From the NCBI RefSeq assembly GCF_009925085.1, contig NZ_JAABNR010000023.1:1-49130 (forward strand): a stretch of DNA of 49,130 nucleotides, read 5' to 3'. Origin of the DNA: Stagnihabitans tardus. Its GTDB lineage: Bacteria; Pseudomonadota; Alphaproteobacteria; Rhodobacterales; Rhodobacteraceae. A program made the translations under genes and the position numbers. The notes beneath the pieces are model-generated. The model worked only from the letters and a program-made list of their open reading frames with translations, had not been told where the DNA came from and did no database searches. Below, piece after piece: positions 661 to 19,735 of the stretch. Position 1 is the first letter of the stretch. Every line of letters starts with the position of its first letter.

Positions 661-751
661 GACTTCCCCCAAAACCCTAACAAATCCCTAACCCCACACC
701 CCATCCCCCAACGAATACAACCCCTTAGCCCCTCTTGCACGCGTGCAAGAG
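661..751 (-). repeat. Copy 1 of palindrome plus G-rich tail element
   Basis: On the minus strand this reads as a perfect 20-base palindrome (CTCTTGCACGCGTGCAAGAG, 732-751), about 30 variable bases, then a tail with ATGGGGTGTGGGGTTAGGG and TTGTTAGGG. The second copy at 19651-19735 has the same 16-base palindrome core, nearly the same spacing and the same kind of tail. Here the palindrome faces the core gene at 828 and the tail faces the low-G+C gene ending at 633. The tail holds TTAG-N7-TTAG where copy 2 has TTAA-N7-TTAA. Confidence 0.7.
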
Positions 752-827
752 CCCCTTGACTCCGCCGACCAGCCCCCCTTGCACCTCCCCGCCCTTTCGG
801 CGAAAACGCCCCCAAAGGAGCAAGCTC

Positions 828-1154
828 ATGATCACCATCCTCGGCCTCTCGACCTGCGACACGACCAAGCTTGCCCTGAAAACCCTGACCCAAAAAGGCA
901 TCGAGGCCCGCCTGCGCGACATCCGCGCCGAGCCTCTGTCTGACCAGGAAATCGACCGCATCGTGATGGAATTCGGCGACAGGGCGGTGAACAAGCAATC
1001 CACCACCTATCGCAGCTTCTCGGCCTTCCTGCGCGAATCCGAGCCCGAGGCGCAGATCAAGGCCCAAGCCGCCGTGATGAAGCGCCCCGTCATCACCGAC
1101 GGGACCACCTGGACGCTGGGTTGGACCCCGGAGACCGAGGCCCGCTGGTCTTAA
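828..1154 (+). CDS. ArsC/Spx-family thioredoxin-fold protein
   Basis: 108 residues, the usual size of the arsenate reductase ArsC / Spx / YffB family. The N-terminus MITILGLSTCDTTKLA places a single cysteine (C10) where the family has its catalytic cysteine, followed by the Thr-rich turn and helix; KRPVITDG near residue 86 matches the conserved RP(V/L)I turn. The start is set by AAAGGAG seven bases upstream of the ATG. A true arsenate reductase is possible, but no ars genes are near and YffB-like members have no proven arsenate activity, so I give no symbol. Its stop codon overlaps the stop of the convergent cold-shock gene inside TTAA. Confidence 0.85.
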   Translation: MITILGLSTCDTTKLALKTLTQKGIEARLRDIRAEPLSDQEIDRIVMEFGDRAVNKQSTTYRSFSAFLRESEPEAQIKAQAAVMKRPVITDGTTWTLGWTPETEARWS

Positions 1155-1357
1155 AGCAGCTTCAGGTTGCCGGCCGATTGCTTGCCGTCGCGGCCCGACA
1201 TCAGCTCGTAATTGACCTTCTGGTTGTCGTTCAGCCCCTTGAGGCCCGCCCGCTCGACCGCCGAGATATGGACGAAGACATCCTTGCCGCCATCATCGGG
1301 GGCGATGAAGCCGTAGCCCTTGGTGCTGTTGAACCACTTCACGGTGCCATTCGGCAT
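1151..1357 (-). CDS. cspA: Cold-shock domain protein
   Basis: 68 residues forming one cold-shock domain, an OB fold that binds single-stranded RNA and DNA and acts as an RNA chaperone. RNP1 is KGYGFI (13-18) and RNP2 is VFVHIS; the opening GTVKWFN is characteristic. The ribosome-binding site (GGAAGGAGAG before GCGGC-ATG) is very strong. The leader up to the thrS end is about 200 bases, so a long 5' untranslated region is possible, as in many csp genes. cspA is used in the family sense; which paralogue this is cannot be told from the window. Confidence 0.93.
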   Translation of the reverse strand: MPNGTVKWFNSTKGYGFIAPDDGGKDVFVHISAVERAGLKGLNDNQKVNYELMSGRDGKQSAGNLKLL

Positions 1358-1502
1358 GCCGCTCTCCTTCCTCTAGCTTTCCCCCGGCGGAATTGCCCGG
1401 GGCCGTGCGAGCAGACCCATGCCCGTCAGGGAGCCAAAGGGATTTCCGTCGTCACTGGGCGGGATGATGCCAAAGGTTAAACGAAAATCAAGCAGCATTG
1501 AC

Positions 1503-1532
1503 GGGGAAGGGGGCTTTTCCTCCCCCTCCCCG
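1503..1532 (-). terminator. Probable terminator hairpin after thrS
   Basis: On the minus strand a G-rich arm (GGGGAGGGGGAGG) pairs with CCCCCTTCCCC across an AAAAG loop, about 40 bases after the thrS stop. A smaller GGCCCG-GATT-CGGGCC hairpin lies between it and the gene. The T tract that follows is weak. Confidence 0.4.
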
Positions 1533-1570
1533 CCTGCAAAACCTGCAATCCGGCCCGAATCCGGGCCTGA

Positions 1571-3520
1571 TCAGTGCGAGGGCGGCAGCGCGTCGAAGCC
1601 GAAGGCCTTGACCGCCTCGTCGAAACTCACCACCTCGACCCGGTTCTCGCCCAGGCGGCGGACCGAGGCCGTGCGCTCCTCGACCTCCTTCATGCCGATG
1701 GCCAGGATGACCGGAACCTTGCCCAGGGAGTGCTCGCGGACCTTGTAGTTGATCTTCTCGTTCCTGGTATCCGCCTCTGCCCGGACACCGGCGCGCTTCA
1801 AGGCCTCGGTCAACTCCAGCACATAGGCATCGGCATCCGAGACGATGCTTGCCACCACCACCTGGCGCGGGGCCAGCCAGAAGGGGAACTTGCCCGCGTA
1901 GTTCTCGATGAGAATCCCGATGAAGCGTTCAAACGAGCCCAGAACCGCGCGGTGCAGCATCACCGGGTGATGCTTGGCCCCGTCCTCGCCGACATATTCC
2001 GCGCCCAGACGCACCGGAAGGTTGAAATCGCATTGGAAGGTGCCGCATTGCCACTCGCGGCCAATCGCGTCGGTCAGCTTGAAATCCAGCTTCGGGCCGT
2101 AAAACGCCCCGTCGCCCGGGTTGACCTGGTAGGGCAGGCCGAGGCTGGTGATCGCCTTTTCCAGCGCGGCTTCGGCCTTGTCCCAGACCTCGTCCGAGCC
2201 CACCCGCACATCGGGACGGGTCGAGAGCTTGATGTCGAATTTCTGGAAGCCGAGGTCCTTGTAAACGCTGGACAAAAGCGAGATGAAGCCCGCGCATTCG
2301 GCCTCGATCTGGTCTTCGGTGCAGAAGATATGCGCGTCGTCCTGCGTGAAGCCGCGCACCCGCATCAGCCCGTGCATGGAGCCCGAGCTCTCATAGCGGT
2401 GGCAGGAGCCGAACTCGGCCAGCCGCAGCGGCAGGTCGCGGTAGGACTTCAGACCCTGGTTGAAGACCTGCACATGGCAGGGGCAATTCATCGGCTTCAG
2501 CGCGTTGATGCGCTTTTCCTTGGCGCCCTCTTCGTCGACCTCCACGATGAACATGTTCTCGCGGTAAGCCTCCCAGTGGCCGGACTTCTCCCAAAGGACC
2601 CGGTCAACCACTTGCGGCGTCTTGATTTCTTTATATCCCGCGCGGCGGAGCCGCCCGCGCATGTAGTCCTCCAGCGTCCGGTAAACCTGCCAGCCATTCG
2701 GATGCCAGAAGACCATGCCCGGCGCTTCGTCCTGGAGGTGGAAGAGCTCCATCTCGCGGCCAAGCTTGCGGTGGTCGCGCTTGGCGGCCTCTTCCAGCAT
2801 GGTCATATGGGCCTTCAGGTCGTCGCGGTTCTTGAAGGCCAGGCCATAGATGCGCTGCAGCATCGGGCGGGTCGCATCGCCCAGCCAATAGGCCCCTGCC
2901 ACATGGGTCAGCTTGAAGGCATCCGCCGGAACCTGCCCCGTATGAACCAGATGCGGCCCCCGGCAAAGGTCCTGCCAGGCCCCATGCCAATACATCCGCA
3001 GGTCCTCGCCCTCGGGGATGCGGTTGATCAGCTCGACCTTGAAGGGCTCGCCGCGCTCTTCGTAATAGGCGATGGCGCGGGCGCGGTCCCAGACCTCGGT
3101 CTTCACCGGGTCGCGGGCGTTGATGATCTGCTTCATCTTCGCCTCGATGGCGCCCAGGTCTTCGGGCGTGAAGGGTTCGGCGCGGTCGAAGTCATAGAAC
3201 CAGCCGTAATCGCGGACCGGGCCGATGGTGACCTTCACATCCGGCCAGATCTCTTGCACGGCGCGCGCCATGATATGGGCGAGGTCGTGGCGGATCAGCT
3301 CCAGCGCGGGGCCGTCATCCTTCATCGTGTTGATGGATATCCGGGCATCGCCCATGATCGGCCATTGCAGGTCCCAATGCTGGGCATCGACTTGCGCGGA
3401 AATCGCGGCCTTGGCCAGCGAGGGCGCAATCGAGGCCGCCACTTCGGCAGCCGTCACCCCCGGCGCATAGGACCGGATATTGCCATCGGGAAATGTCAGG
3501 GAAATCTGGTGAGCGCTCAT
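1571..3520 (-). CDS. thrS: Threonyl-tRNA synthetase
   Basis: Charges tRNA-Thr with threonine in the cytoplasm. The 649 residues match the usual ~640. Domains in order: N-terminal TGS ([14 protein letters not shown]); editing domain with HDLAH and [10 protein letters not shown], supplying the Zn-like His/Cys set for hydrolysis of Ser-tRNA; class II core with [10 protein letters not shown] and the diagnostic [17 protein letters not shown] stretch followed by TQDDAHIFC; and a C-terminal anticodon-binding domain with [14 protein letters not shown]. The start at 3520 is chosen over a longer frame because GAGGAG lies seven bases upstream of MSAHQ. It is transcribed divergently from the glycosylase-like gene at 3675. 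Confidence 0.97.
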
Positions 3521-3674
3521 GGGCGTTCTCCTCGTCGGTTTGGCGCCTACCAAGCGCCCGGTTGCGGGTATGGTGGCAGCGGTTTGCCAATCCTGCCCCG
3601 TGTCGTCAAGCCCCCCAGTTGGCCCCTTGCCAATCGGGGGGCGGCAGTGTCACCCTTGGGCAAAGGGGACCCCC

Positions 3675-4346
3675 ATGCGCAGCTTTGCCGAAATCCTTGA
3701 AATTGCAGCCTCTCGCCATGGCGGGGCCGAGGCGGTCCTGGCCGATGTGCCGGTCCCGAAGTCGCCCGAGGCCCTGGCCGCGATCCCCGACGACCTTTGG
3801 CTGGCGCAGATGGCCAAGGGCATCTTCCAGGCCGGGATCAGCTGGAAGGTCGTCGACAACAAGTGGGAGGGCATCCGGAGCGCCTTCCACGATTTCCGCC
3901 CGGCCCGCGTGGCGCTGATCGCGGGCGACGAGCTTGACGACCTCCTGGACGACACGCGGGTGATCCGCTCCGGCCCCAAGATCGTGGCGATCCGCGACAA
4001 TGCGGTCTGGATGACCAAGGTGGCGGCCGAGCACGGCTCCTTCGCCGCCCGGATCGCCCATTGGCCGGGGGAGGATTACGGCGGGCTCCTCGCCTGGCTC
4101 GCCAAGGAGGGCGCGCGGCTGGGCGGCAACACCGGCGCCTATGCCCTGCGCGCCATGGGGCGGGACGGCTTCACGCTCTCGGCCGATGTGGTGGCCCGCC
4201 TGGTCGAAGAGGGCGTGATCGACGCCGCACCGAGTTCGTCCCGCGCCTTGAAGGCGGTGCAAGAAGCCTTCAACCAGTGGCGCACCGAAAGCGGCCTGCC
4301 GCTGACGACCATCTCCCGCATCCTGGCAAGAAGCATCGACGCATGA
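3675..4346 (+). CDS. DNA-3-methyladenine glycosylase I-like protein
   Basis: 223 residues of the Tag-type HhH-GPD superfamily, which removes 3-methyladenine and related lesions in base-excision repair. Supporting segments are WLAQMAKGIFQAGISWKVVDNKW, close to the Tag pattern F..G.SW..V..K, and GPKIVAIRDNA. The Zn-binding Cys/His set of E. coli Tag is not visible, so the protein belongs to a diverged branch and its substrate is uncertain. The start follows AAAGGGGA. Its TGA overlaps the ATG of the hydrolase gene (ATGA), which indicates translational coupling. Confidence 0.8.
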   Translation: MRSFAEILEIAASRHGGAEAVLADVPVPKSPEALAAIPDDLWLAQMAKGIFQAGISWKVVDNKWEGIRSAFHDFRPARVALIAGDELDDLLDDTRVIRSGPKIVAIRDNAVWMTKVAAEHGSFAARIAHWPGEDYGGLLAWLAKEGARLGGNTGAYALRAMGRDGFTLSADVVARLVEEGVIDAAPSSSRALKAVQEAFNQWRTESGLPLTTISRILARSIDA

Positions 4347-5056
4347 TCCACAATGGCCGCCGCATCGCCCATCACCAGACTGCAGGGCAGGGGCCCGGCG
4401 TCATCTTCCTGGGCGGCTATCGGTCCGACATGACGGGCACCAAGGCGCTCGCCCTGCAAGCCTGGGCCGAGGCCCGGGGCCGCGCCTTCCTGCGTTTCGA
4501 CTATTCCGGCCATGGGGCGTCAGAGGGCGTCTTCGAGACCCTGGGCATCTCCGACTGGCTCTCGGACGCCAAGGCGGCGCTCAGCCTGACAGAGGGACCC
4601 CAGATCCTGGTGGGCTCTTCCATGGGCGGCTGGCTCTCGCTGCTTTTGGCCCGCGAGGTCCCTGACCGCGTCAAGGCCCTGGTCCTGATCGCCCCGGCGC
4701 CGGATTTCACCCATGACAGCCTCTTGCCCTCGCTGACCCAGGCCGAACGCGAGGCCCTGGGCACGACGGGCGTGATCCACCGCCCTTCCGCCTATGCCGA
4801 CTTTCCCTATATCTTTTCCCGCGCGCTGATCTCGCAGGGGGCCGAGAACCTCGTCCTGCGCGCCCCCCTGGCCCTGCCGCCCACCCGCATCCTGCACGGA
4901 ACGGCGGATGTGGATGTCCCGCAGGACGTGCCCCTTCGCCTTCTGGCCCATGCGACCGGAGACCTGCGCCTGACGCTGGTCAAGGACGCCGACCACCGCT
5001 TCTCCTCGCCCGACTGCCTCGGCCTCATCGAATCCACCGTCGACTCCATGAGCTAA
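4343..5056 (+). CDS. ABHD10-like alpha/beta hydrolase
   Basis: 237-residue alpha/beta hydrolase. The nucleophile elbow is GSSMG (Ser93), the acid is probably Asp189 in HGTADVDVP, and the base is His218 in DADHRF. GGYRSDMTGTKALAL (24-38) and RFDYSGHGASEG (51-62) match the bacterial relatives of mitochondrial ABHD10, a family with thioesterase and depalmitoylase activities in animals; the bacterial substrate is not known. There is no signal peptide, so it is cytoplasmic. It overlaps the glycosylase-like gene by ATGA, and a hairpin follows its stop directly. Confidence 0.85.
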   Translation: MIHNGRRIAHHQTAGQGPGVIFLGGYRSDMTGTKALALQAWAEARGRAFLRFDYSGHGASEGVFETLGISDWLSDAKAALSLTEGPQILVGSSMGGWLSLLLAREVPDRVKALVLIAPAPDFTHDSLLPSLTQAEREALGTTGVIHRPSAYADFPYIFSRALISQGAENLVLRAPLALPPTRILHGTADVDVPQDVPLRLLAHATGDLRLTLVKDADHRFSSPDCLGLIESTVDSMS

Positions 5057-5090
5057 GGGCGCCGCAGCGCCCCTTTCCCTTTCATCTTTT
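5057..5090 (+). terminator. Terminator after ABHD10-like gene
   Basis: GGGCGC-CGCA-GCGCCC (5057-5072) begins on the base after the TAA stop and is followed by a pyrimidine-rich, T-rich run (CTTTCCCTTTCATCTTTT). Confidence 0.6.
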
Positions 5091-5137
5091 CACAAATATC
5101 CCACGGGAGGGGCCGGGAGGGTGTGAAACCCTCCCGG
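5080..5137 (+). repeat. 3'-end repeat, copy A (AT core plus G-rich hairpin)
   Basis: The AT-rich core TTTCATCTTTTCA-CAAATATCCC (5080-5102) is followed by a perfect 10-bp hairpin CCGGGAGGGT-GTGAA-ACCCTCCCGG (5113-5137). It lies between the converging ABHD10-like gene and phaZ. The same core and the same GTGAA-loop hairpin recur at 48008-48092. Confidence 0.75.
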
Positions 5138-5190
5138 GCGGTCCGCAAGACCTCGGAGAGGCTGTCAAGCCCTCAGGCCGCGTTCCGCAA

Positions 5191-6453
5191 TCACGTCGCC
5201 AGGCGAATGGGCTTCACCCTGGGCTCGGAATGGGCGTCGATGAAGCCCAGGACCAGCGGCCGGATGTTCAACCGCCAGCTCTTGCCGGCAAAGATCCCGT
5301 AATGCCCGGCGTCCGGCTCCAGGTGGCTGGTCTTCTTGTCATCGGGCAGGTTCTTGAGCATGTCCAAGGCCGCGACGCATTGGCCGGGGGCGGAGATGTC
5401 GTCCTTCTCGCCCTCGACCGTCATGACCGCCACGCGGGAAATCGCGCCCAGGTCGACATGCTTGCCCGCCACCATGAAGGCGTTCTGCGCAATCTCGCGG
5501 TTCTTGAAGATGCGCTCGACGGTCGAGAGATAGAACTCCGCCGTCATGTCCATCACGGCGAGGTATTCGTCGTAAAAGCGGTTGTGCTGGTCGTGATCGG
5601 CCGCTTCGCCATTCACCACCCGCATGATCTGGTCCTGGAAAGCCTTGGAGTGCCGCTCGGCATTCATCGACATGAAGCCCGCGAGCTGCAAGAGCCCCGG
5701 ATAGACCAGCCGCCCGGCGCCCTTGTATTTGAAGCCCACGCGCTGGATGGCGAGCTGCTCGAGCTGCCCCATGGTCACGCGGCGGCCAAAGTCGGTCACA
5801 TCGGTCGCCGCCGCATCGGGGTCGATCGGCCCGCCGATCAGCGTCAGGCTGCGCGGCTGGGCGTCCGGGTCCTCACCGGCGAGGTAGGCCGTGGCGGCCA
5901 GCGTCAGTGGCGCGGGTTGGCAAATTGCGATCACATGGGTCTCCGGGCCCAAATGTCGCATGAACTCCACCAGGTAAAGCGTGTAATCCTCGATGTCGAA
6001 TTTGCCCTCGGACACCGGGATATCGCGCGCATTATGCCAATCGGTCACATAAACCTCGGCATCCGGCAGAAGGCTGGAGACGGTGGAGCGCAAAAGCGTC
6101 GCGTAATGGCCCGACATCGGCGCCACCAGAAGGATCTTGCGGGCCATGGGCGCGCGGCGGCGGACGGCGAAATGGATCAGGTTGCCGAAGGGCTTTTCCA
6201 CTTCGGTCACCACATCGACCAGGTGATCCTGGCCCTTGGGGCCCACGATCGAGCGGATCCCCCAGTCGGGCTTGGCCACCATGCGCGAGAAGCTGCGCTC
6301 CGCCACTTCGCCCCAGGCCGCCATCATCGGGATCATCGGGTTGGGCGAGAGGGCAAAGGCCGGATAGGAGGCCATGGCGCGCGCCGAGGCGCCGGCCCAT
6401 TCCACCGTGTTGCGGAAGCTTTCCATCCAGTCGTAAGTGGCCATATACTTCAT
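5191..6453 (-). CDS. phaZ: Intracellular PHB depolymerase
   Basis: Mobilises stored polyhydroxybutyrate at the granule surface. The 420 residues and the cysteine nucleophile in AICQPAP (Cys178), with a late His in AGHYGIFAG (His384) and an Asp in EGEKDDISAP, fit the PhaZ1-type intracellular depolymerases, which use Cys-Asp-His and lack a signal peptide. The ATG at 6453 has AAGGA seven bases upstream; a second ATG at 6444 is less well placed. It diverges from phaC across 80 bases that contain a PhaR-type site, so both genes could be controlled from one operator. Confidence 0.95.
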   Translation of the reverse strand: MKYMATYDWMESFRNTVEWAGASARAMASYPAFALSPNPMIPMMAAWGEVAERSFSRMVAKPDWGIRSIVGPKGQDHLVDVVTEVEKPFGNLIHFAVRRRAPMARKILLVAPMSGHYATLLRSTVSSLLPDAEVYVTDWHNARDIPVSEGKFDIEDYTLYLVEFMRHLGPETHVIAICQPAPLTLAATAYLAGEDPDAQPRSLTLIGGPIDPDAAATDVTDFGRRVTMGQLEQLAIQRVGFKYKGAGRLVYPGLLQLAGFMSMNAERHSKAFQDQIMRVVNGEAADHDQHNRFYDEYLAVMDMTAEFYLSTVERIFKNREIAQNAFMVAGKHVDLGAISRVAVMTVEGEKDDISAPGQCVAALDMLKNLPDDKKTSHLEPDAGHYGIFAGKSWRLNIRPLVLGFIDAHSEPRVKPIRLAT

Positions 6454-6499
6454 GGGCGCGTCCTTCTGATCGGGGGGCGCCGGGGGGCGCTTTGCGATG

Positions 6500-6510
6500 C
6501 TGCAAAGCAG
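6500..6510. promoter_or_regulatory. PhaR-type operator between phaZ and phaC
   Basis: CTGCAAAGCAG is an exact CTGC-N3-GCAG, the type of site described for Paracoccus denitrificans PhaR. It lies 23 bases upstream of the phaC ATG and 46 bases upstream of the phaZ ATG. Confidence 0.6.
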
Positions 6511-6533
6511 AATGATAGGGGCGAAAGATTAAC

Positions 6534-8318
6534 ATGACAACCGAAGAACAGGACGCTGCGACCAAAGTCGCGCGGTTGCAGGAAAATCTTTCGCGGGTCG
6601 AAGCGCTCTCAAGCCGCCTCGCCGCAGCCCTGTCGCAGCGCAAACCCCATGATTTGGCGCTGGATGGCCCCAGCCAGGAGGTTTTTCTGAAGGCTGCGGG
6701 GGCTTTCATGGCCGGGATGATGCAAAATCCGGCAAAGTTGATGGAGGCCCAGGTCGGCTACTGGACCAAGTCCCTGAAACAATATGCCGCAGTCCAGGAG
6801 GCCGCGCTGAAGGGAGAACCCGTCGCCGATGCCCCCAAGGACCGCCGATTCAGCAACCCGCTTTGGGAGACCAACCCCGCCTTCGCCTATATCAAGGCGC
6901 AGTATCTCTTGAATGCCGAGGCGATCCAGAACTCCCTGGCCGATCTCGAGGGCCTGTCGGATGACGACCGCAGCCGGGCCGAGTTCTTCACCAAGCAGAT
7001 CGTCGACATGTTCGCGCCGACGAATTTCCTGGGCCTCAATCCCGATGCGATGGAAAAGGCCATGGAGACCGACGGCGCGAGCCTCGTCCAGGGGCTGGAG
7101 AATCTCGTCCGCGACCTGGAGGCCAACCGGGGCGAGGCGCAGGTGACCTTGGCCGACCCCGCGGCCTTTACCGTGGGCGTCAACATCGCCACCACCCCGG
7201 GCGAGGTCGTCTTCCGCAACCGCATGTTCGAGCTGATCCAGTACACGCCCGTCACCGACAAGGTGCACAAGATCCCCCTGCTGATCTTCCCGCCCTGGAT
7301 CAACAAGTTCTACGTCATGGACATGAAGCCCGCCAATTCGCTGATCCGCTGGATCGTCGAACAGGGCTTCACGGTTTTCGTGGTCTCCTGGGTCAACCCC
7401 GACGCCTCTTACGCCGATGTCACGATGGATGACTATATCCGCGAGGGCTTCATGACCGCCATGGCCGAGGTCCGCCGCGCCACGGGCGAGAAGAGGATCA
7501 ACGCGGTCGGCTATTGCATCGCGGGCACGACCCTGGGCCTGACGCTTGCCCATCTGGAGAAGGCGGGGGACAAGACGGTCAACGCGGCGACCTTCTTCAC
7601 CACGCTCACCGATTTCTCGGACCCGGGCGAGGTCGGGGTCTTCCTCGCCAACGATTTCGTGGACGGGATCGAGCGGCAAAGCCTGAAGGACGGCATCCTC
7701 TCGCGCGCCTATATGTCGCGGACCTTCTCCTTCCTGCGGTCGAACGACCTGATCTGGCAGCCCGCCATCAAGCATTACATGATGGGCGAAAAGCCCCCGG
7801 CCTTTGACCTTTTGTTCTGGAACGGCGACGGCACGAACCTGCCCGCCAAGATGGCCATCGAATACCTGCGCGGGCTCTGCCAGGACGACGGCTTTGCGCA
7901 GGGCACCTTCAAGGTCTTTGGCGATCCGGTGAAGCTGTCCGATGTCCGCGTGCCGCTGTGTGCCATTGCCTGCGAGACCGACCACATCGCCCATTGGAAA
8001 GGGTCCTATAACGGCGTCAAGCAGATGGGCGCCAAGGACAAGACCTTTATCCTCAGCCAGTCCGGCCATATCGCGGGGATCATCAACCCGCCCTCCAAGG
8101 GGAAATACGGCCATTACACCAACGAGGGCCCGATGGGCGCCCCGGATGATTGGCGCGCGGGTGCGACCTTCAACCAGGGCTCCTGGTGGCCGCGTTGGCG
8201 CGACTGGCTGGCCGACCGCTCCGGCCCCAAGGTCAAGGCGCGCCAGCCCGGCACGGCCGAGCTGCCCGTCCTTTGCCCCGCGCCCGGGACCTATGTGACG
8301 GCCACGCCCAAGGTCTGA
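6534..8318 (+). CDS. phaC: Class I poly(3-hydroxyalkanoate) synthase
   Basis: Polymerises (R)-3-hydroxyacyl-CoA, mainly 3-hydroxybutyryl-CoA, into storage polyester on granules. The 594 residues match class I synthases. The N-terminal ~200 residues form the usual variable domain. The lipase-like box is GYCIAGT (Cys328), with Asp483 in CETDHIAHWKG and His512 in SQSGHIAGIINPP completing the triad. PPWINKFYVMD, VSWVNPD and LFWNGDGTNLP are other hallmarks. The Shine-Dalgarno sequence is weak, but this ATG opens the conserved frame. It is followed by phaP and phaR on the same strand. Confidence 0.96.
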   Translation: MTTEEQDAATKVARLQENLSRVEALSSRLAAALSQRKPHDLALDGPSQEVFLKAAGAFMAGMMQNPAKLMEAQVGYWTKSLKQYAAVQEAALKGEPVADAPKDRRFSNPLWETNPAFAYIKAQYLLNAEAIQNSLADLEGLSDDDRSRAEFFTKQIVDMFAPTNFLGLNPDAMEKAMETDGASLVQGLENLVRDLEANRGEAQVTLADPAAFTVGVNIATTPGEVVFRNRMFELIQYTPVTDKVHKIPLLIFPPWINKFYVMDMKPANSLIRWIVEQGFTVFVVSWVNPDASYADVTMDDYIREGFMTAMAEVRRATGEKRINAVGYCIAGTTLGLTLAHLEKAGDKTVNAATFFTTLTDFSDPGEVGVFLANDFVDGIERQSLKDGILSRAYMSRTFSFLRSNDLIWQPAIKHYMMGEKPPAFDLLFWNGDGTNLPAKMAIEYLRGLCQDDGFAQGTFKVFGDPVKLSDVRVPLCAIACETDHIAHWKGSYNGVKQMGAKDKTFILSQSGHIAGIINPPSKGKYGHYTNEGPMGAPDDWRAGATFNQGSWWPRWRDWLADRSGPKVKARQPGTAELPVLCPAPGTYVTATPKV

Positions 8319-8373
8319 TCTCAAAGCATACAAGCTATGCGGGAAGAATCATGCCGCGTCGCAGAAACTTCAC

Positions 8374-8402
8374 TTGAAATGCTGCGGTGCAGCATGTATG
8401 TT
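8374..8402 (+). promoter_or_regulatory. phaP promoter with PhaR-type operator in the spacer
   Basis: TTGAAA (8374-8379) and TATGTT (8397-8402) are separated by 17 bases. The spacer carries the palindrome ATGCTGC-GGT-GCAGCAT (8379-8395), which contains CTGC-N3-GCAG. A repressor on this site would cover both the -35 and -10 elements, in keeping with known PhaR repression of phasin genes. Confidence 0.6.
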
Positions 8403-13134: not shown

Positions 13135-14486
13135 ACGTTCAACAACAGGTGCTGACGCTCCCAAGGCGAGATGACCTGCAGGAACTCTTTGTATTCGTTG
13201 CGTTTGACAGAGTTATAGACCTTGTGGAAATCGGCCCCCAGGATCTCGATCAGGGCCGTGTCCGCCTCGAAAGCGTCCAAGGCGTCGCCCAAGGTCGAGG
13301 GGATCTGGTCCTCGTCGACATAGGCCGAGCCGGTGAATTCGGCCCGCGCGCCCTTTTTCTCCATGAGCCCAAGGTAGCCGCAGGCCAGCGTGGCCGCGAT
13401 GCCAAGGTAAGGGTTGCAATCCATCCCCGGCAGGCGGTTCTCGATCCGCCGCCCGGCCGGGGAGGAGATCGGAATCCGCAGGCCCGTCGTCCGGTTGTCG
13501 CGGCCCCATTCCAGGTTGATCGGCGCGGCGAAGTCCGGGACGTAACGGCGGTAGGAGTTCACATAGGGCGCCAGAAGCGCAATCGCCCCGGTCAGGTGGT
13601 TCTGCATGCCGCCGATGAAGTCGAAGAAGGCGGGGGTCTCCACGCCCTTGGGGCCCGCGAAGATGTTCTTGCCGGATTTCGAATCCACGACCGAGGTGTG
13701 GATATGCATGGCACTCCCCGGCTCTCCGGCAATCGGCTTGGCCATGAAGGTGGCGAAGCAGTCATGCCGCAAGGCCGCCTCGCGGATCAGGCGCTTGAAG
13801 AAGAAGACCTCGTCGGCCAGCTTGATCGGGTCACCATGGGCGAGGTTCAACTCGATCTGCCCCGCGCCGCCCTCTTGCAGGATGCCGTCGATCTCCAACC
13901 CTTGCGCCTCGGCAAAGTCATAGATGTCGTCGATCACCTTGCCATATTCGTCGATGGCCGACAGGCTATAGGCCTGTTTCGCCGCAGCCTTGCGGCCCGA
14001 GCGGCCCATCGGCGCCTCGACCGGCATATTGGGGTCGATGTTGCGGGCGGTCAGGAAGAATTCCATCTCGGGCGCCACGACCGGGGTCCAGCCCTGGTCG
14101 TTGTAGAGCTTGATGATCTTTTTCAACACGTTGCGCGGCGAGAAGGGCACCGGATTGCCCTCCTGGTCCATCGCGTCATGGATCACTTGCAGCGTCACAT
14201 CCGCCGTCCAGGGCGCGGCGGTCGCGGTATCCAGGTCGGGGACCATGACCATGTCCGGCTCGGTGAAGGCGTCGAAGGGATTGTCGGCCCATTCGCCCGT
14301 GATCGTCTGCAGGAAGATCGAGTTCGGCAGGTAATAGTTGGTCTGCTTGGCGAACTTGGGCGCGGGCATGGCCTTGCCCCGCGCGACCCCGGCAATGTCG
14401 CCGATCACGCATTCCACCTCATCCACGCGCCGGTTGCCAATGTAATCACGCGCCGCCTCGGGCAGCTGATCGGTCCACTTGGACAT
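13131..14486 (-). CDS. Glutamine synthetase-family gamma-glutamyl-amine ligase (PuuA-like), first copy
   Basis: 451 residues with the GS catalytic fold: APEMEFFL (metal-binding Glu), GAGQIELNLAHGDP, GSAMHIHTSVVD (the ATP/metal His) and NRTTGLRIP with a downstream RIENRLPG. It lacks the adenylylation-site region of GlnA and has the shorter N-terminus of the PuuA/GlnT group, which ligates glutamate to an amine rather than ammonia. It forms a tight unit with the FAD oxidase (ATGA overlap) and lies 16 bases downstream of the amidotransferase gene. It shares the fold but only modest identity with the second copy at 15254-16603, so the two probably take different amines. Confidence 0.87.
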   Translation of the reverse strand: MSKWTDQLPEAARDYIGNRRVDEVECVIGDIAGVARGKAMPAPKFAKQTNYYLPNSIFLQTITGEWADNPFDAFTEPDMVMVPDLDTATAAPWTADVTLQVIHDAMDQEGNPVPFSPRNVLKKIIKLYNDQGWTPVVAPEMEFFLTARNIDPNMPVEAPMGRSGRKAAAKQAYSLSAIDEYGKVIDDIYDFAEAQGLEIDGILQEGGAGQIELNLAHGDPIKLADEVFFFKRLIREAALRHDCFATFMAKPIAGEPGSAMHIHTSVVDSKSGKNIFAGPKGVETPAFFDFIGGMQNHLTGAIALLAPYVNSYRRYVPDFAAPINLEWGRDNRTTGLRIPISSPAGRRIENRLPGMDCNPYLGIAATLACGYLGLMEKKGARAEFTGSAYVDEDQIPSTLGDALDAFEADTALIEILGADFHKVYNSVKRNEYKEFLQVISPWERQHLLLNV

Positions 14487-14502
14487 GTTAACCTCAGGGG
14501 CC

Positions 14503-15180
14503 TCAGGCCCGTTCCTGTTTGAAGAAGGCCGCGATCTGCCCGGCCATGGTCTGCGTATCGAGAGGCAGCGACAGACGCCCGGTGGCCTCGGCCATCAGCG
14601 CATCGGGCACCAGCCCCTTGCCCCGGGTCTTCATCAGCCCATCGACGAATTCGGAGCGGAATTCGGGATGGGCCTGCACCGTGAGGGCGCGGTCGTCATA
14701 CAAAAGCGCCGCATTGGTGCAGAAATCGTTCGTCGCAATCACCTTGGCAGAGGGCGGGGCGACCGTCACCTGGTCCTGGTGCCAGGCGTTCATCCGCAGG
14801 CTGTGATCGCCGAAATCATACTCGGTCGGGCCCACGGCCCAGCCCTTTGCGTATTTTTCGACCTTGCCGCCCATGGCCTGGGCCACGATCTGGTGGCCAA
14901 AGCAGATGCCCACGACGGGCACCCGCGCCGCAAAGGCCGCGCGGATGAAGTCCTCCAAGGGCGGGATCCAGGGGTGATCCTCGTAGACGCCATGGCGCGA
15001 GCCGGTGATCAGCCAGCCGTCGCAGTCATGGACATCCTTGGGGAAGGCCCCCTCGACGACGCGGAAGGTCTGAAAGGTGAAGCCGTTCCCGTCCAGAAGG
15101 CGGGCGAACATGTCGGGGTAATCGCCCATGTCCTTCAGCGCTTCGGGCGCGAGGCCGGTTTGCAGGATGCCGATTTTCAT
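14503..15180 (-). CDS. Class I glutamine amidotransferase
   Basis: 225 residues with the triad Cys93 (VVGICFGHQIVAQ), His171 and Glu173 (QAHPEF). There is no fused synthase domain, so this is a free-standing GuaA-like GATase. Sitting between two gamma-glutamyl ligase genes, it may hydrolyse a gamma-glutamyl intermediate, the role of PuuD in the E. coli Puu pathway, though PuuD belongs to a different subgroup. The reaction is inferred from context only. Confidence 0.85.
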   Translation of the reverse strand: MKIGILQTGLAPEALKDMGDYPDMFARLLDGNGFTFQTFRVVEGAFPKDVHDCDGWLITGSRHGVYEDHPWIPPLEDFIRAAFAARVPVVGICFGHQIVAQAMGGKVEKYAKGWAVGPTEYDFGDHSLRMNAWHQDQVTVAPPSAKVIATNDFCTNAALLYDDRALTVQAHPEFRSEFVDGLMKTRGKGLVPDALMAEATGRLSLPLDTQTMAGQIAAFFKQERA

Positions 15181-15243
15181 GCGTCGCCTTGGTTTCCTGG
15201 CCCATTTAGCCCGCGCCCCCCGGGTCTGGTCAAGGGGGCACGG

Positions 15244-15256
15244 GATATTTTGATCA
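15244..15256 (-). repeat. Short form of the 3'-end repeat core
   Basis: In the sense of the ligase gene, the stop codon TGA runs into TCAAAATATCCC. Only the AAATATCCC half of the core is present and the flank has no clear G-rich hairpin, so this is a weak member. Confidence 0.3.
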
Positions 15257-16603
15257 AACGGTGTCGAGATAGAGCTCGACCTTTTCGGAATCCGACAGCT
15301 CGTCTAGGTAATGCAGCTCTTGCCGCTTGGTCGAGATCAGGTTCTTGATCAGCTCGGGATGGATGAAGCGCGGCACGATTTCCGACTGTTCCAGCGCCTC
15401 GATGGCGGCCTCCCAATTGGGCGCGATCTGGGGCAGGTCCTCGATCGCATAGGCATTGCCGACGACAGGGCTCGGGGCGTCCATCTCGTGCTCGATCCCG
15501 TCCAGAGCCGCGCCAAGGATCCCCGCCAGCATCAGGTAGGGATTGACGTCGCCGCCCGCGACCCGGTGCTCGATGCGGCGCGCGGCCGGGTTGCCCGCCG
15601 GGATGCGGATGGCCGAGGTGCGGTTCTCATAACCCCAGGAGACGGCGGTGGGGGCGTGCTTGCCCGGCACGAGGCGCTCATAGGAATTCTGGTGCGGCGC
15701 GAAGAGCAGCGTCGAATCATGCATCGCATTCAGGCAGCCCGCGACGGCCTGGCGCAAGAGCGCCGTGCCCTTGGGGCCGCCCGAGTCGAAGACATTGCGC
15801 CCGTCGTTGTCCACCAGCGAGAAGTGAGTGTGCAGGCCCGAGCCGGAATATTCCGGGTAGGGTTTCGCCATGAAGCTCGCCGCAAAGCCGTGGCGCCGCG
15901 CCAGGCCCTTGACCAGCATCTTGAAGAGCCAGGCATCATCGGCGGCGCGCAAGGCGTCGTCGCAATGCATCAGGTTCACTTCGAACTGCCCCAGACCCGT
16001 CTCCGAGGTCGAGGTATCGGCCGGAATGTCCATCGCCTCGCAAGCGTCGTAGAGGTCGGTAAAGAAGGTGTCGAAAGCGTCGAGCGCGCGGATCGACAGG
16101 GTCTCGGCCGCCTTCCGGCGCTTGCCCGAACGCGGCGAGGGGGGGACTTGCAGCGTCTTGCCCGAATCGTCGATCAGGAAGAATTCCAGCTCCATCGCGC
16201 AGACCGGCGTGAGCCCCCGCGCCTTGAAGCGCTGCACGACCGTCGCAAGCGCATGGCGCGGGTCGCCCTCATAGGGCGTGCCGTTCTCGCGGAACATCCA
16301 GATCGGCAGAAGCGCGGTCGGCGCCTCGAGCCAGGGCATCGGCATGAAGCCGCGTTCGGTGGGTTTCAGCACCCCGTCCTGGTCGCCCTGTTCGAAAACC
16401 AGCGGGCTGTCGTCGATATCCTCGCCCCAGATGTCGAGGTTCAGGACCGAGAAGGGGAAGCGCGTCCCATCCTTCACGACCTTGTCTGCAAAACGCGCGG
16501 GAACCCTCTTGCCCCGTGCCTGCCCGTTGAGGTCCGCCGCCGCCACGCGAATGGTCCGGACGTCCGGGTGTTTCCTGAGCCAATCCTTCATCATGTCATT
16601 CAT
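15254..16603 (-). CDS. Glutamine synthetase-family gamma-glutamyl-amine ligase (PuuA-like), second copy
   Basis: 449 residues with GS motifs CAMELEFFLIDD, GLGQFEVNLMHCDD, GSGLHTHFSLVD and NRTSAIRIP followed by RRIEHRVAGGDVNPYL. Like the neighbour it is of the gamma-glutamylpolyamine synthetase type, not housekeeping GlnA. The start is uncertain: the frame is open to 16657, and MNDMMKDW (16603) is preferred because conserved sequence begins there, although no good Shine-Dalgarno sequence precedes it. It heads the minus-strand amine cluster. Its TGA is followed at once by TCAAAATATCCC, a short form of the window's 3'-end repeat. Confidence 0.85.
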   Translation of the reverse strand: MNDMMKDWLRKHPDVRTIRVAAADLNGQARGKRVPARFADKVVKDGTRFPFSVLNLDIWGEDIDDSPLVFEQGDQDGVLKPTERGFMPMPWLEAPTALLPIWMFRENGTPYEGDPRHALATVVQRFKARGLTPVCAMELEFFLIDDSGKTLQVPPSPRSGKRRKAAETLSIRALDAFDTFFTDLYDACEAMDIPADTSTSETGLGQFEVNLMHCDDALRAADDAWLFKMLVKGLARRHGFAASFMAKPYPEYSGSGLHTHFSLVDNDGRNVFDSGGPKGTALLRQAVAGCLNAMHDSTLLFAPHQNSYERLVPGKHAPTAVSWGYENRTSAIRIPAGNPAARRIEHRVAGGDVNPYLMLAGILGAALDGIEHEMDAPSPVVGNAYAIEDLPQIAPNWEAAIEALEQSEIVPRFIHPELIKNLISTKRQELHYLDELSDSEKVELYLDTV

Positions 16604-16770
16604 TCGGAAGGGGCACGATCGCAGCCATGGCTGCCTCGGATCATGCCCTTGATCCATCCCCTTTAGCCGATCCCGGCAGGTGCCTTCGCAGCACCCGCGT
16701 CAATTTGATCAAATTCAGGATGCGGGATTCGGGCGCGTTTGGCAACAAGAATCGGCTGTGGAAAGGTCGC

Positions 16771-16818
16771 CTGGGGGCGCTGCCCCCAGACCCCCGGGAT
16801 ATTTGTGAAAAGATGAAA
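16771..16818 (-). repeat. 3'-end repeat, copy C
   Basis: On the minus strand: TTTCATCTTTTCA-CAAATATCCC, then GGGGGTCTGGGGGC-AGC-GCCCCCAG. It starts four bases after the TAA of the PhnD-like gene. Core and order are the same as at 5080 and 48008; the hairpin is CTGGGGGC-GCT-GCCCCCAG (16771-16789). The rest of the gap 16604-16822 shows nothing else beyond possible promoter sequence for the ligase gene. Confidence 0.75.
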
Positions 16819-16822
16819 GGGC

Positions 16823-17602
16823 TTAGGGGGCGCCGAAATGAGACGGTGCGGGAGGCGTGGGGATGGAAAGATAGGCATCCGCAGAGATTCGCGTGAGGCC
16901 CTTGAGGCAAAGCGTGGCGCGGTCCTCCTGGGAAAGGGCGGCGACGGCCTGTTGCAGGATCGGGAAAAGGCGGTCGGCATCGGCGTCCTTGGCGGCGATC
17001 CAGGGCAGTCCGGGGGTCGGGGTGGTGCGGGCGATCACTTTCAGGCTTGCCGCAAAGGCGTCGTGGCGGGTGATCATCGTCCAGGTCACGACGTCGATGC
17101 CCGCGATCTCGGCGCGGCCCTCGGCCACGGCGCGGGCCGACAGGACATGGCCGCCGGAGCGGAGGGATGGTCGCAGGGTGACGCCCTGCGAGAGCGCATG
17201 GGACATCGGCCCCGCCCAGCCCGATTGCGAGAGGTCCTCGTTGAAGGCAAGGGCCGCGCCGTCAAAGGCCTTGAGGCTGTCGCGCTTGTCGTCCTTGCGC
17301 GCGACATAGACCGAGACATAATGCCCAGGCGGGCAGCCCTCGACGCCGTAATCGGGGGTGGCCAGAAGGGTGACGCGGCCATGGAGCTTGGCGCGGTAGG
17401 GATAGCCGCAGGTCTGGGAGAGGATCAGGTCAGGGCTCTCCCAGGCCGGCCAATAGGATTGGGGCCCCCGGGTGAGGGCTTCGGGCGCGGGCAGCCCTTC
17501 GGCCCTGAGCCCGTCGCGGATCAGAGCCCAAAGCCGGTCATTGGCGGGCTGGACTTCGGCCCGGTCATACATGGCCAGCGAGGCGATCCCCGAGCCTGTC
17601 AC
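16823..17602 (-). CDS. PhnD-like substrate-binding-fold protein without signal peptide
   Basis: 259 residues with the type-2 periplasmic binding fold seen in PhnD/phosphonate-binding proteins (SQTCGYPYRAKL, PPGHYVSVYVARKDD, LAFNEDLSQSGWAGP, RSGGHVLSARAVAEGRAEIAGIDVVTW). The usual N-terminal export signal is missing and no ABC transporter partner is adjacent, so it may be a cytoplasmic sensor or an orphan. It begins with GTG overlapping the upstream gene's TGA (GTGA), indicating coupling with the TerB-like gene. Ligand unknown. Confidence 0.72.
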   Translation of the reverse strand: MTGSGIASLAMYDRAEVQPANDRLWALIRDGLRAEGLPAPEALTRGPQSYWPAWESPDLILSQTCGYPYRAKLHGRVTLLATPDYGVEGCPPGHYVSVYVARKDDKRDSLKAFDGAALAFNEDLSQSGWAGPMSHALSQGVTLRPSLRSGGHVLSARAVAEGRAEIAGIDVVTWTMITRHDAFAASLKVIARTTPTPGLPWIAAKDADADRLFPILQQAVAALSQEDRATLCLKGLTRISADAYLSIPTPPAPSHFGAP

Positions 17603-18027
17603 TGGGCGGCCCTCTGCCGCGCGAGGGCCGAGTCGACATCGTTCAGCCCGAGGAGATTGGCCGCCAGCCGCAGGAGCCGATCCTCTTCGGCATCGCGCTG
17701 CCCATCGGCCAGGGCCACGCGCCAGAGCGCCTCGACCAGCGACTTGCGGTCTTCCAGCGGCACGGCCTCTTTCAGCGCGCGGGTGAAGCGGACCGTGTCG
17801 GGGGCAAGCTGCTCGGCCGTCTCGGCCTCTTGGCGCAGGGCGCGGGCGGCCTCGGGGGCAAGGGCGTAACGGCTGGCGAGGATGCGGTCGATCCGCGCCA
17901 GTTCGGCCGGGGAGGCATGGCCATCGGCCCGCGCCACGCGCACCAAAAGCGCCGCCAGCGCCAGCTGTTCATCGGGGGCCGGAAGCCGGGAGGGGGCGGG
18001 GCCGAAGAGGAGGTCGAGGAAGCTCAT
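17599..18027 (-). CDS. TerB-like (tellurite-resistance fold) protein
   Basis: 142 residues, mostly helical, with the TerB/DjlA-like pattern: LAALLVRVARADGHASPAELARIDRIL and, in the second half, LVEALWRVALADGQRDAEEDRLLRLAANLLGL. The acidic loops (RADGHASPAE, LADGQRDAEE) are the conserved metal-binding-like turns of the family. Function unknown; TerB proteins are linked to stress responses and membranes. Cotranscribed with the PhnD-like gene through a four-base overlap. Confidence 0.78.
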   Translation of the reverse strand: MSFLDLLFGPAPSRLPAPDEQLALAALLVRVARADGHASPAELARIDRILASRYALAPEAARALRQEAETAEQLAPDTVRFTRALKEAVPLEDRKSLVEALWRVALADGQRDAEEDRLLRLAANLLGLNDVDSALARQRAAQ

Positions 18028-18053
18028 CCCCCAAGGATAGGACGCGCGCGGCC

Positions 18054-18842
18054 CTAGCGGAAGAGGGCAGAAAGCCGCTTGGCCTCTTCGTGAAGACCAT
18101 AGGGCGGGTTCACCACGAAAAGCCCCGAGCCCACCATGCGATGGCCGGGGCGGGCCGGGGGGAAGCGGACCTCGTGGGTCAGGGCCTCGGGGAAGGACTT
18201 CTGCAGGCTGCGGATCATCGGCCCATGCGGCGCATCGGTCAGGATCGGATACCAGAGCGCCAGGATGCCGACATTCCAGCGCCGGGCGACCTGGGGCAGG
18301 ATCACCGGAAGCCGATCGTAATCGGTCTTCACCTCGAAGGAGGGGTCGATCAGCATCATCCCCCGGCGCGGGTTGGGCGGGGTCAGCGAGAGCGCCGCCG
18401 CCAGCCCGTCCTCCTTGAGGATGCGGAAGGAGGCATGGTTGGCGGTCCGCAGGGGCTGGATCGCGGCCTCCAGGGCCTGGTGTTCCTGGGGGTGGAGCTC
18501 GCAAAGCCAAAGCCCGTCCTGCGGTCGCATGATCTGCCCCGCGATCAGCGGTGAGCCAGGATAGGCGGCGCGGCCAAAGGCCTTGCGGGTCATCGAGAGG
18601 ACACGGCGGTAGGGGTGACCCTCGGGCAGGCGGGCCTCGAGCCGGGAGATGCCCTGCGCCGCCTCTCCGGTCTTGGTGGCCTCGGGGCCCGCGAGGTCGT
18701 AAAGTCCGCGGCCCGCATGGGTCTCCAGGTAGGTGAAGGCCTTGTCCTTCTGGGTCAGGTAATCCAGCATCCAGGCCAGAAGCGCATGTTTCTGGACATC
18801 GGCGGCATTGCCCGCGTGATAGGCGTGTTGGTAGGACAGCAT
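18054..18842 (-). CDS. rlmJ: 23S rRNA (adenine(2030)-N6)-methyltransferase RlmJ
   Basis: 262 residues. The N-terminus MLSYQHAYHAGNAADVQKH is the diagnostic RlmJ start (family MLSYRHxFHAGNxADVxKH). ETHAGRGLYDL is the SAM-binding motif I, with the inserted helical domain following. The catalytic loop reads IDPSFE where E. coli has DPPY, a Ser for the second Pro and Phe for Tyr. RlmJ modifies A2030 of 23S rRNA. It diverges from the TerC-family gene across 96 bases. Confidence 0.93.
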   Translation of the reverse strand: MLSYQHAYHAGNAADVQKHALLAWMLDYLTQKDKAFTYLETHAGRGLYDLAGPEATKTGEAAQGISRLEARLPEGHPYRRVLSMTRKAFGRAAYPGSPLIAGQIMRPQDGLWLCELHPQEHQALEAAIQPLRTANHASFRILKEDGLAAALSLTPPNPRRGMMLIDPSFEVKTDYDRLPVILPQVARRWNVGILALWYPILTDAPHGPMIRSLQKSFPEALTHEVRFPPARPGHRMVGSGLFVVNPPYGLHEEAKRLSALFR

Positions 18843-18938
18843 GGGCGCGGCATGCGGCGGAATGGGCGCGATTGCAAGGGGCTTGGTTGAACTTGCGGCC
18901 TTTGGCGCTTAGATAGGCGCAAAACCGAAGGGACAGCC

Positions 18939-19619
18939 ATGGAATTCCTGACAGCCGCAATCGCGGAAATCTTCTCACGCGAGGGCTTTGCCGCCCTCAT
19001 GTCCGTGATCGGCATCGACCTGGTCCTGGCGGGCGACAATGCCATCGTCATCGGTCTTGCCGCCGCGGGCCTGCCGAAAGAGCAGCGCGCCAAGGCGATC
19101 CTGGTGGGGATCATCGCGGCCACGATCATGCGCATCGGTTTCGCCGCCGTGACGGTGCAGCTCTTGCAGGTCGTGGGGCTCTTGCTGGCGGGCGGCATCC
19201 TGCTTTTGTGGGTCTGCTGGAAGATGTGGAACGAGCTGCGCCACGACGCGGCCTCGGACAACGCGGCCGAAGAGGCGCTGACGGGGCAGGATCTGAACGC
19301 CGACGGGACCATCGCCGGGGGGGCTCCGCGCAAGACCTTTGCCCAGGCGGCCTTGCAGATCGTGATCGCCGATGTCTCGATGAGCCTGGACAATGTCCTG
19401 GCCGTGGCGGGGGCTGCGAAGGATCACCCTGCGGTCCTGGTCATCGGGCTGGTGCTCTCGATCGCCCTGATGGGCCTCGCGGCCAGCTTCATCGCGCGGC
19501 TTTTGAACAAGCATCGCTGGATCGCCTATGTGGGCCTCGCCATCATCGTCTATGTGGCGGGCAAGATGATCTGGGAGGGCTGGCACGAGGTCCAGCCGGT
19601 GGTCCTGGGGATGCTCTGA
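18939..19619 (+). CDS. TerC-family (YjbE-type) membrane protein
   Basis: 226 residues with about seven membrane segments. The two family signatures are IDLVLAGDNAIVIGLAA (24-40) and VIADVSMSLDNVLAVAGAA, the acidic intramembrane pairs of TerC proteins. The YjbE subgroup is linked to manganese export or metal loading of exported enzymes, but the ion here is not shown. I looked for a yybP-ykoY type leader in the 96-base gap to rlmJ and saw none. Downstream is the second palindrome element and the acquired DUF262 gene. Confidence 0.9.
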   Translation: MEFLTAAIAEIFSREGFAALMSVIGIDLVLAGDNAIVIGLAAAGLPKEQRAKAILVGIIAATIMRIGFAAVTVQLLQVVGLLLAGGILLLWVCWKMWNELRHDAASDNAAEEALTGQDLNADGTIAGGAPRKTFAQAALQIVIADVSMSLDNVLAVAGAAKDHPAVLVIGLVLSIALMGLAASFIARLLNKHRWIAYVGLAIIVYVAGKMIWEGWHEVQPVVLGML

Positions 19620-19650
19620 GGATTTCCAGGTTTGGTAAGCGGAGTCAGGG

Positions 19651-19735
19651 GCCTCTTGCACGCGTGCAAGGGGCCCTATGTCTTTGGAAGGATTGGAGAA
19701 ATGGTGTGGGGGTTAAGGGGTTGTTAAGGAGTTGC
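19651..19735 (+). repeat. Copy 2 of palindrome plus G-rich tail element
   Basis: CTTGCACGCGTGCAAG (19655-19670) lies within a larger imperfect palindrome with flanking GGGCC/GGCCC arms (19649-19676). About 30 bases later comes ATGGTGTGGGGGTTAAGGGG and TTGTTAAGG. It contains TTAA-GGGGTTG-TTAA (19713-19727), which fits the TTAA-N7-TTAA CtrA-binding consensus. The element separates terC from the low-G+C DUF262 gene, with the tail on the acquired side, as in copy 1. The remaining bases to 19826 hold only the likely leader of the DUF262 gene. Confidence 0.7.

Follow-up and report, generated by a model that had tools for sequence, protein, structure and literature searches.

We describe here a repeated DNA element of the alphaproteobacterium Stagnihabitans tardus, two copies of which lie in a stretch of 49,130 nucleotides of its genome (contig NZ_JAABNR010000023.1, positions 1 to 49,130; hereafter the window), and which we interpret, tentatively and with a near-even chance of being right, as a nucleoprotein site that is present in many chromosomal copies, marks the ends of genes and forms a boundary beside which cargo genes are tolerated. 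Each copy consists of a 16-bp palindrome (CTTGCACGCGTGCAAG in the window), a spacer and a tail with two half-boxes (Table 1). An earlier note on this DNA, made from its letters, had described palindrome and tail at both places, and this held up: both palindromes are exact and both tails agree with the description. No other site in the window comes within three mismatches of CTTGCACGCGTGCAAG (2 found in all, 0.35 expected), the window has no Rfam match at the gathering score, and we found no description of this Rhodobacteraceae repeat family in the literature searched.

A constant layout shared by the copies of the S. tardus genome

Searching the whole 4.59-Mb S. tardus genome (G000) with the palindrome alone, we found 18 copies (12 exact and 6 with one mismatch) and none with the reversed pattern as a control. 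All 18 have a common layout, about 75 bp long and shifted slightly at most: the palindrome is followed after about 6 bp by YAAG, 3 bp and TTGA, then after about 23 bp by a first GTTAR box, with a second box 11 bp further on. The two GTTAR-type tail boxes were detected within three mismatches in 18/18 copies, compared to a maximum of 4 in shuffled sequences. With a pattern in which the core CACGCGTG and parts of the tail were the only fixed letters, we found 14 places in this genome, all of them TTGCACGCGTGCAA copies, and the palindrome is thus uniform among the copies found there.

Beyond S. tardus, a structure-aware model matched in 32 of 295 genomes drawn from the family, many with one weak match and 16 with five or more; these counts are lower bounds, as at most 16 candidates were scored per genome. 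Focused searches returned as many as 46 matches in G321, along with 30 in G104, 18 in G277 and 40 in G129, numbers that may include the same site twice. By script, a palindrome of this type was absent from six loci each of G139 and G213 and from single loci of G323 and G168, so that the matches in these four genomes may be false, and several G104 tails deviate by eye. Merging identical copies left 113 of 128; L054 and L064 (low score) and L121, L147, L157, L057 and L063 (chance or coding matches) were left out. The exact core-plus-tail pattern, which covers the CACGCGTG core only, was found in none of the viral contigs.

Lineage-specific palindromes that keep their symmetry

Different genomes carry different spellings of the palindrome, which we call dialects. 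Among 61 genomes searched in all, TTGCACGCGTGCAA occurs 19, 27 and 31 times in G000, G002 and G007, respectively, and at most once in every other genome. For GTCCACATGTGGAC the counts are 71 in G010, 29 in G011, 10 in G008, 2 in G006 and 1 in G002, with none in the other 11 of 16 genomes, and GTAACACGCGTGTTAC was found 4 times, in G012 only. Reversed controls for the dialect palindromes gave no match, and the dialects are near-exclusive within one genus.

An exact core-plus-tail scan of GTDB contigs returned 51 stretches, 48 of which are titled Rhodobacteraceae or its genera, Rhodobacterales, or unclassified Alphaproteobacteria, while the remaining three (L121, L147 and L157) carry titles of other groups and flanks that are not symmetric, and are probable chance matches. 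The pattern fixes the core CACGCGTG and leaves four bases per side free, and hence favours CACGCGTG copies; the CACATGTG dialect was recognised via one G011 match and the terC site of G010. The inner three flank bases are complementary in 48/48 family stretches (48/51 overall) and the outermost base in 34/51, with spellings that vary between genera, for example ATTG/CAAT, TGTC/GACA, GTCG/CGAC and TGCC/GGCA. Pair counting over 46 hand-chosen copies revealed 95.6% of cells to be paired, compared to 66.1% after shuffling, and 80 doubly changed cells versus 25.8, with two of five pairing measures (double-change pairs and further pair types) not above the shuffles. A single G-U cell was seen in the three inner varying palindrome pairs. 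The flanks thus vary yet stay complementary, with one G-U cell among them, which is what a DNA dyad would show.

Several dialects (TGTG, TGCG, TGCT, TGTC and GGTC flanks) were observed side by side in one genome, that of Pararhodobacter SW119, at loci L114, L116, L119, L127, L130, L135, L148, L151, L159 and L160, some with tails reading GTTAACCGCAATGAAAC or similar; paralogous binding proteins could underlie this.

A spacer box that matches the IHF consensus

The box YAANNNNTTGATW in the spacer is the reverse complement of the consensus WATCAANNNNTTR for integration host factor (IHF), as given in an excerpt of PMC8942017, and 15/18 G000 copies carry this consensus on the opposite strand with at most two mismatches at one offset (a shift of 1 allowed), compared to a maximum of 3 in 300 shuffles. 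The earlier note had claimed constant spacing with a filler that is not conserved: the spacing stands, the filler does not, and it had seemed unconserved because only the two window copies were compared, both of them weaker instances of the box. Its suggestion of protein-contact sites is borne out to the extent that several conserved, probably protein-contacting, boxes lie at constant spacing.

Taken at the single offset 22, the reverse-strand consensus fits 7/18 G000 copies within one mismatch and 12/18 within two. In the CACATGTG dialect, sampled as 20 copies (10 of 29 from G011 and 10 of 71 from G010), the forward-strand consensus was found at offset 34, in 12/20 copies within one mismatch and in 17/20 within two (shuffle maxima of 2 and 3, respectively), and by either measure the box lies 12-15 bp farther from the palindrome than in G000. 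Because these twenty loci were chosen without regard to the box (the tail was used for orienting them, and L292 is probably turned the wrong way), the IHF consensus recurs independently. The tail boxes are present within three mismatches in 18/20 of these copies, both motifs having been used for orientation. The DNA just past the box is A+T-rich (70% over 8 columns) in a motif-selected, aligned set; 85/113 copies were retained by motif before the fold and A+T statistics, which biases the motif counts of that set upwards, and the 18-copy and 20-copy IHF tests are free of this bias.

Position relative to genes

Simple open reading frame (ORF) calling gave a palindrome-side neighbour for 110 deduplicated copies. 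This gene is co-directional in 76 of them, and in 60 of these 76 the start of the palindrome lies -1 to 21 nt past its stop codon. Two further sets gave 17/29 and 15/20 copies within 25 nt behind a frame of at least 100 codons.

A palindrome that often directly follows stop codons could also act as RNA, that is, as an element of the 3' untranslated region with two mRNA hairpins that stop or stabilise the transcript. The copy at 19655 forms a 13-pair stem flagged as terminator-like (with a poor T-run), some spacers fold strongly, and for the spacer alone a copy's own half paired slightly better than swapped halves (z = -1.8, 12/300 swaps as good). For the larger second hairpin, however, own halves were no better than swapped ones (z = +2.1, the wrong direction), and RNAalifold run on 85 hand-aligned copies recovered the palindrome stem alone; a second RNA hairpin in the tail, which gives good single folds but no own-pair advantage over the whole stretch, was rejected as a general feature. 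Most of the 85 copies have no U-tract by eye, copy 1 of the window was not flagged as a terminator, and the GC-rich stem followed by a U-tract that marks an intrinsic terminator was not found. Given moreover that the varying inner palindrome pairs hold one G-U cell only and that the palindrome is near-identical throughout the genome, which an RNA stem does not need, we regard an RNA element as very unlikely. In L124 and L010 the spacer between the IHF-like box and the tail forms part of a 14-pair hairpin, which is not general.

The position of the copies also bears on a regulatory role for the neighbouring genes, be it through a CtrA-like tail (TTAA-N7-TTAA), a promoter or an operator. The tail fits TTAA-N7-TTAA in some copies, and TTGACTCCGCC-like sequences lie near some, but of the 99 copies for which both neighbours were called only 9 are flanked by divergent genes, neither window copy has a promoter-like site, and the second tail box varies in other lineages; the specificity of CtrA is conserved. 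The neighbours share no common function among the families listed, for which reason a shared regulon was also rejected, and a regulatory site is in our estimate distinctly unlikely.

Low-G+C DNA beyond the tail

The earlier note had placed the two low-G+C stretches of the window on the tail side of each copy, and both are there, as are the DUF6161 remnant and the GmrSD (DUF262/DUF1524) gene. Its wider proposal that the tail side is where acquired DNA lies applies to part of the lineages. G+C falls below 58% over the 800 bp past the tail in 21/102 deduplicated copies with sufficient flank, compared to 0/102 for the 800 bp on the palindrome side; 3 of the 21 (L120, L128 and L136) come from a genome of generally lower G+C. 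In 500-bp bins, values below 55% were found in 17/106, 7/55, 5/45 and 7/44 over the first 2 kb of the tail side, in 1/41 past 2 kb and in 0 or 1 each thereafter, versus 0/110 and 0/67 in the first kilobase of the palindrome side, where a few low bins lie farther out. Compared with other gene junctions at the same loci, with the threshold set relative to each locus, a low-G+C first gene was found at 9/50 element junctions versus 3/369 controls, and at 3/22 versus 0/60 when convergent junctions alone are considered; with windows behind the 3' ends of other genes as the control, the figures are 12/51 versus 7/225. Judged as insertion hotspots, the copies thus exhibit an excess of foreign DNA over comparable junctions in part of the samples.

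Several tail-side genes are defence genes. Clear PADLOC or Pfam matches on this side include GmrSD/HEC-06 (window), an AbiLi/AriA-like ATPase (L122), AIPR/AbiU (L113), Mrr (L140) and Type II methyltransferases (L005, as well as L095 and L084, one site in two genomes). Neither PADLOC nor Pfam matched the low-G+C tail genes of L127, L069, L018, L155, L083 and L020. Among the families listed for the palindrome side (25 of 46 and 25 of 110), most are metabolic, and the PADLOC matches there are single and mainly of the helicase type. These protein searches covered 93/95 tail-side genes (L065 and L098 out) and 89/95 palindrome-side genes (six doubtful ORFs out).

Another repeat, TAGGGTGCGTG with CACGCACC nearby, was seen directly behind the element in L069 and between terC and pyrG in L209 (G001), at the edge of low-G+C DNA in these two genomes, and is possibly another repeat family tied to cargo.

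Homology borders and the terC-pyrG site

To locate the borders of cargo, we compared relatives with a common palindrome-side gene, counting positions from the palindrome start. Homology stops at +72 to +77 at four sites (L091/L071, L095/L084, L122/L149 and L155/L161) and, for the dinB site, at +89 to +96, in all five cases where the element ends or shortly beyond. In loci with sufficiently long flanks it picks up again at the next conserved gene, and the cargo in between differs. Earlier ends were found in L103/L081 (+36), in L015 compared to two relatives (+14 and +31) and in W19655/L053 (-76), and in L007 compared to two relatives homology ends before the palindrome. It continues through and beyond the element in seven G002/G007 pairs, in L096/L078 and in L119/L138, so that many sites show no cargo difference. 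The right border of cargo, where seen, lies at or close to the neighbouring stop codon, and no second element was found at such a border; allowing at most 4 mismatches in eight cargo loci gave one 4-mismatch match in 4/8 and none at the right cargo end. An eight-locus cluster with an apparent common upstream gene turned out to be a chain of unrelated genes and was discarded, and only pairs such as those at dinB, the HI0933-like gene and terC were retained.

In six further genomes of the genus (G007, G012, G010, G015, G011 and G008), the element or a variant of it likewise lies behind the terC homologue, with spellings that differ among these and G000 (both by eye), indicating that the dialect changed in place at this orthologous site. 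What lies between terC and pyrG differs as well: the window element and GmrSD in G000, variants with low-G+C DNA in G011 and G015, and an element with 447 bp of high-G+C DNA in G012. The gap reads as 12 bp with no element in G004, terC runs directly into the pyrG end in G003, and G005 and G009 have different DNA behind terC, with no element by eye. In the terC-pyrG intervals of G010 (L212) and G002 (L211), DNA resembling an insertion sequence (by eye) starts inside or directly behind a variant or damaged element.

The change of dialect at the terC site argues against a mobile repeat in decay, akin to the repetitive extragenic palindromes (REPs) and the bacterial interspersed mosaic elements (BIMEs), whose copies a transposase would have spread by acting on the hairpin. 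Since spacing and motifs persist although the spacer sequence is randomised, and since the terC site changes dialect between species, selection rather than recent copying seems to maintain the copies. The transposase model RAYT/Y1 (PF01797) scored over the cut-off in 0/16 genomes of the genus, with one match just below it in G007, and matched in 5/14 control genomes. A mobile repeat would nonetheless be expected to look similar in several respects, as the element is extragenic, palindromic, species-specific, often just behind genes and present in tens of copies, and REPs are known as insertion targets (according to an excerpt of PMC1525189); we see only a slim chance that this explanation is right.

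The earlier note had proposed, as an alternative to a regulatory role, an insertion or recombination site. One explanation of this kind is a docking site at which a trans-acting recombinase or another integration pathway, helped by IHF, inserts small cassettes behind the tail, with the palindrome as a core-type dyad and the tail repeats as arm-type sites. Such a site would have the order of dyad, IHF box and direct repeats with cargo on the repeat side, as in lambda att, and it would account for low-G+C DNA that lies mostly within 2 kb and begins right behind the tail, for the homology breaks with differing cargo at one and the same site, for the enrichment over other junctions, and for the 4/6 copies of G321 that have low-G+C tail sides. 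The cargo examined, however, has no second palindrome, attachment partner or matching end on its right side, where the border is the next gene's stop codon or close by. No recombinase tied to the sites was seen, although tyrosine and serine recombinases were not sought systematically. Most copies, moreover, are without low-G+C cargo, with 0/17 and 1/20 in two samples considered below, and low-G+C DNA occurs behind terC with no recognisable element in three relatives. The finding that the earlier note had named as fatal to its insertion-site proposal, copies mostly between conserved genes with no variable cargo, was made in part. We consider a docking site unlikely, and a more specific version, in which intasome-like assemblies of a lineage-specific dimer, IHF and a tail factor direct small defence-gene cassettes to a fixed point behind the tail, quite improbable; if true, anti-phage genes would be interchangeable among dozens of positions on the chromosome, a dispersed and integron-like supply with address codes specific to the lineage.

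A candidate nucleoprotein boundary at gene ends

The constant spacing, the change of dialect in place, the Watson-Crick symmetry and the kept, movable IHF box lead us to favour a nucleoprotein site that is maintained by the host. A putative dimeric DNA-binding protein of lineage-dependent specificity would occupy the palindrome, IHF would bend the spacer DNA, and a third contact would be made at the tail, where the two half-boxes lie one helical turn apart, such that the bend could bring the palindrome and tail complexes together. Behind stop codons, where most copies lie, the folded complex would most likely act as a boundary, a barrier to transcription or topology at the end of a transcription unit. 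The element would then stay with its conserved neighbour, whereas the DNA beyond it would be free, so that foreign genes, some of them for defence, may be tolerated and exchanged past the tail. Cargo is best explained in our opinion as tolerance beyond a conserved gene end, and the symmetric variation of the palindrome fits co-evolution with a protein that binds it.

Several points weigh against this interpretation. Judging from position, 34/110 copies lack a co-directional palindrome-side gene. The role of IHF rests on a consensus match that is weak in both window copies, and in the CACATGTG dialect the reverse consensus also fits in part, at offset 37 (3/20 within one mismatch and 9/20 within two); as the core CAA-N4-TTG is itself symmetric, the orientation of the box depends on the side of the AT, and its 'inverted' arrangement in the second dialect is a matter of best fit. 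Regarding cargo, 0/17 G129 copies (20 fetched, from about 40 in the genome) have a low-G+C tail side, and among G010/G011 copies 1/20 tail sides and 0/20 palindrome sides fall below 58%. In a mixed independent set that includes G129, 4/26 tail sides and 0/26 palindrome sides are low, and all four are from G321, which leads us to regard cargo as a feature of some lineages and copies. Behind terC, low-G+C DNA without a recognisable element is found in G001, G013 and G014, and the element is therefore not required for cargo there. Finally, a passive boundary alone explains neither the prominence of defence genes in the cargo nor the scarcity or absence of cargo in the G129, G010 and G011 samples.

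Across lineages, dozens of sites have changed their palindrome in concert while the presumed IHF site was kept, and rearranged in one dialect, providing a natural experiment on the co-evolution of a DNA-binding protein and its genomic sites. The element also offers a simple sequence marker by which sites of acquired-gene exchange can be found.

The window copies and their neighbours

The DUF6161 match on the tail side of copy 1 (window 151-633) covers model positions 74-213 of 216 only, and the gene thus looks truncated at its start. On the palindrome side of this copy lies a high-G+C gene without a Pfam name; the earlier note had called it ArsC-like, a label that we could not confirm, as window 828-1151 has no Pfam match at E up to 1e-5. 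A motif reading GGCGGAGTCA or similar (TGACTCCGCC on the opposite strand) was observed at window 757-767 and 19638-19650, and also near the element, on either side, in L005, L007, L008, L015, L017 and L018; it resembles a promoter -35 region, and promoter scans of the window copies found nothing.

Table 1. The two copies of the element in the window and the genes beside them.
Feature	Position	Strand	Remarks
16-bp palindrome CTTGCACGCGTGCAAG, copy 1	734..749	minus	element read on the minus strand
IHF-like box, copy 1	715..727	minus	reads YAANNNNTTGATW with the element; weak, 2 mismatches by eye; assigned by consensus match
Tail, copy 1	677..692	minus	GTTAG...TTGTTAG, two half-boxes 11 bp apart
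16-bp palindrome CTTGCACGCGTGCAAG, copy 2	19655..19670	plus	extends to a 13-pair imperfect stem at 19648-19677
IHF-like box position, copy 2	19677..19689	plus	degenerate, 3 mismatches by eye
Tail, copy 2	19712..19727	plus	GTTAAGGGGTTGTTAA
terC	18939..19619	plus	conserved gene on the palindrome side of copy 2
GmrSD-type (DUF262/DUF1524) defence gene	19827..21527	plus	low G+C; tail-side cargo of copy 2
pyrG (CTP synthase)	21545..23188	minus	conserved right flank of the cargo slot
DUF6161 remnant	151..633	plus	low G+C; tail-side cargo of copy 1

Comparison with known systems

The CtrA box of Alphaproteobacteria reads TTAA-N7-TTAA, and the tail half-boxes resemble it in their 11-bp spacing and, in part of the copies, in their fit to this pattern, but the second half-box is not kept across lineages and the neighbours, mostly metabolic among the families listed, are not recognisably cell-cycle or motility genes. 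The attL or attP arms of lambda-type phages and the attI sites of integrons likewise combine a dyad, an IHF site (lambda) and helically spaced direct repeats; the element differs from these in that the far end of the cargo examined bears no partner site, in its tens of copies per genome and in that no linked integrase was seen (recombinases were not searched for systematically).

With REPs and their RAYT transposases, the element shares species-specific palindromes behind genes, and REPs are insertion targets in the excerpt of PMC1525189 cited above, but it is a 75-bp layout with conserved non-palindromic boxes, is present in far fewer copies and occurs in genomes with no RAYT over the cut-off. 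In the RIB/BIME-1 elements of E. coli, IHF is bound between two REPs (excerpt of PMC2817692). The element resembles RIB/BIME-1 in being repeated, extragenic and palindromic, in carrying a box of apparent IHF consensus at a fixed place (which differs between two dialects) and in lying at the 3' ends of transcription units, if not in all copies. It differs in its architecture, a single short dyad with an unrelated tail where RIB/BIME-1 has two inverted REPs flanking the IHF site, in its unrelated sequence, in its lineage-specific dialects and in the cargo that lies alongside in some lineages. In view of the missing inverted REPs, and of the 16 genus genomes with no RAYT over the cut-off, we do not file the element as a member of RIB/BIME-1, but by analogy it probably works like one. 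To our knowledge the function of the E. coli RIBs is unsettled; if the protein that binds the palindrome is found, the function of IHF-containing extragenic palindromes could be tested by swapping dialects.

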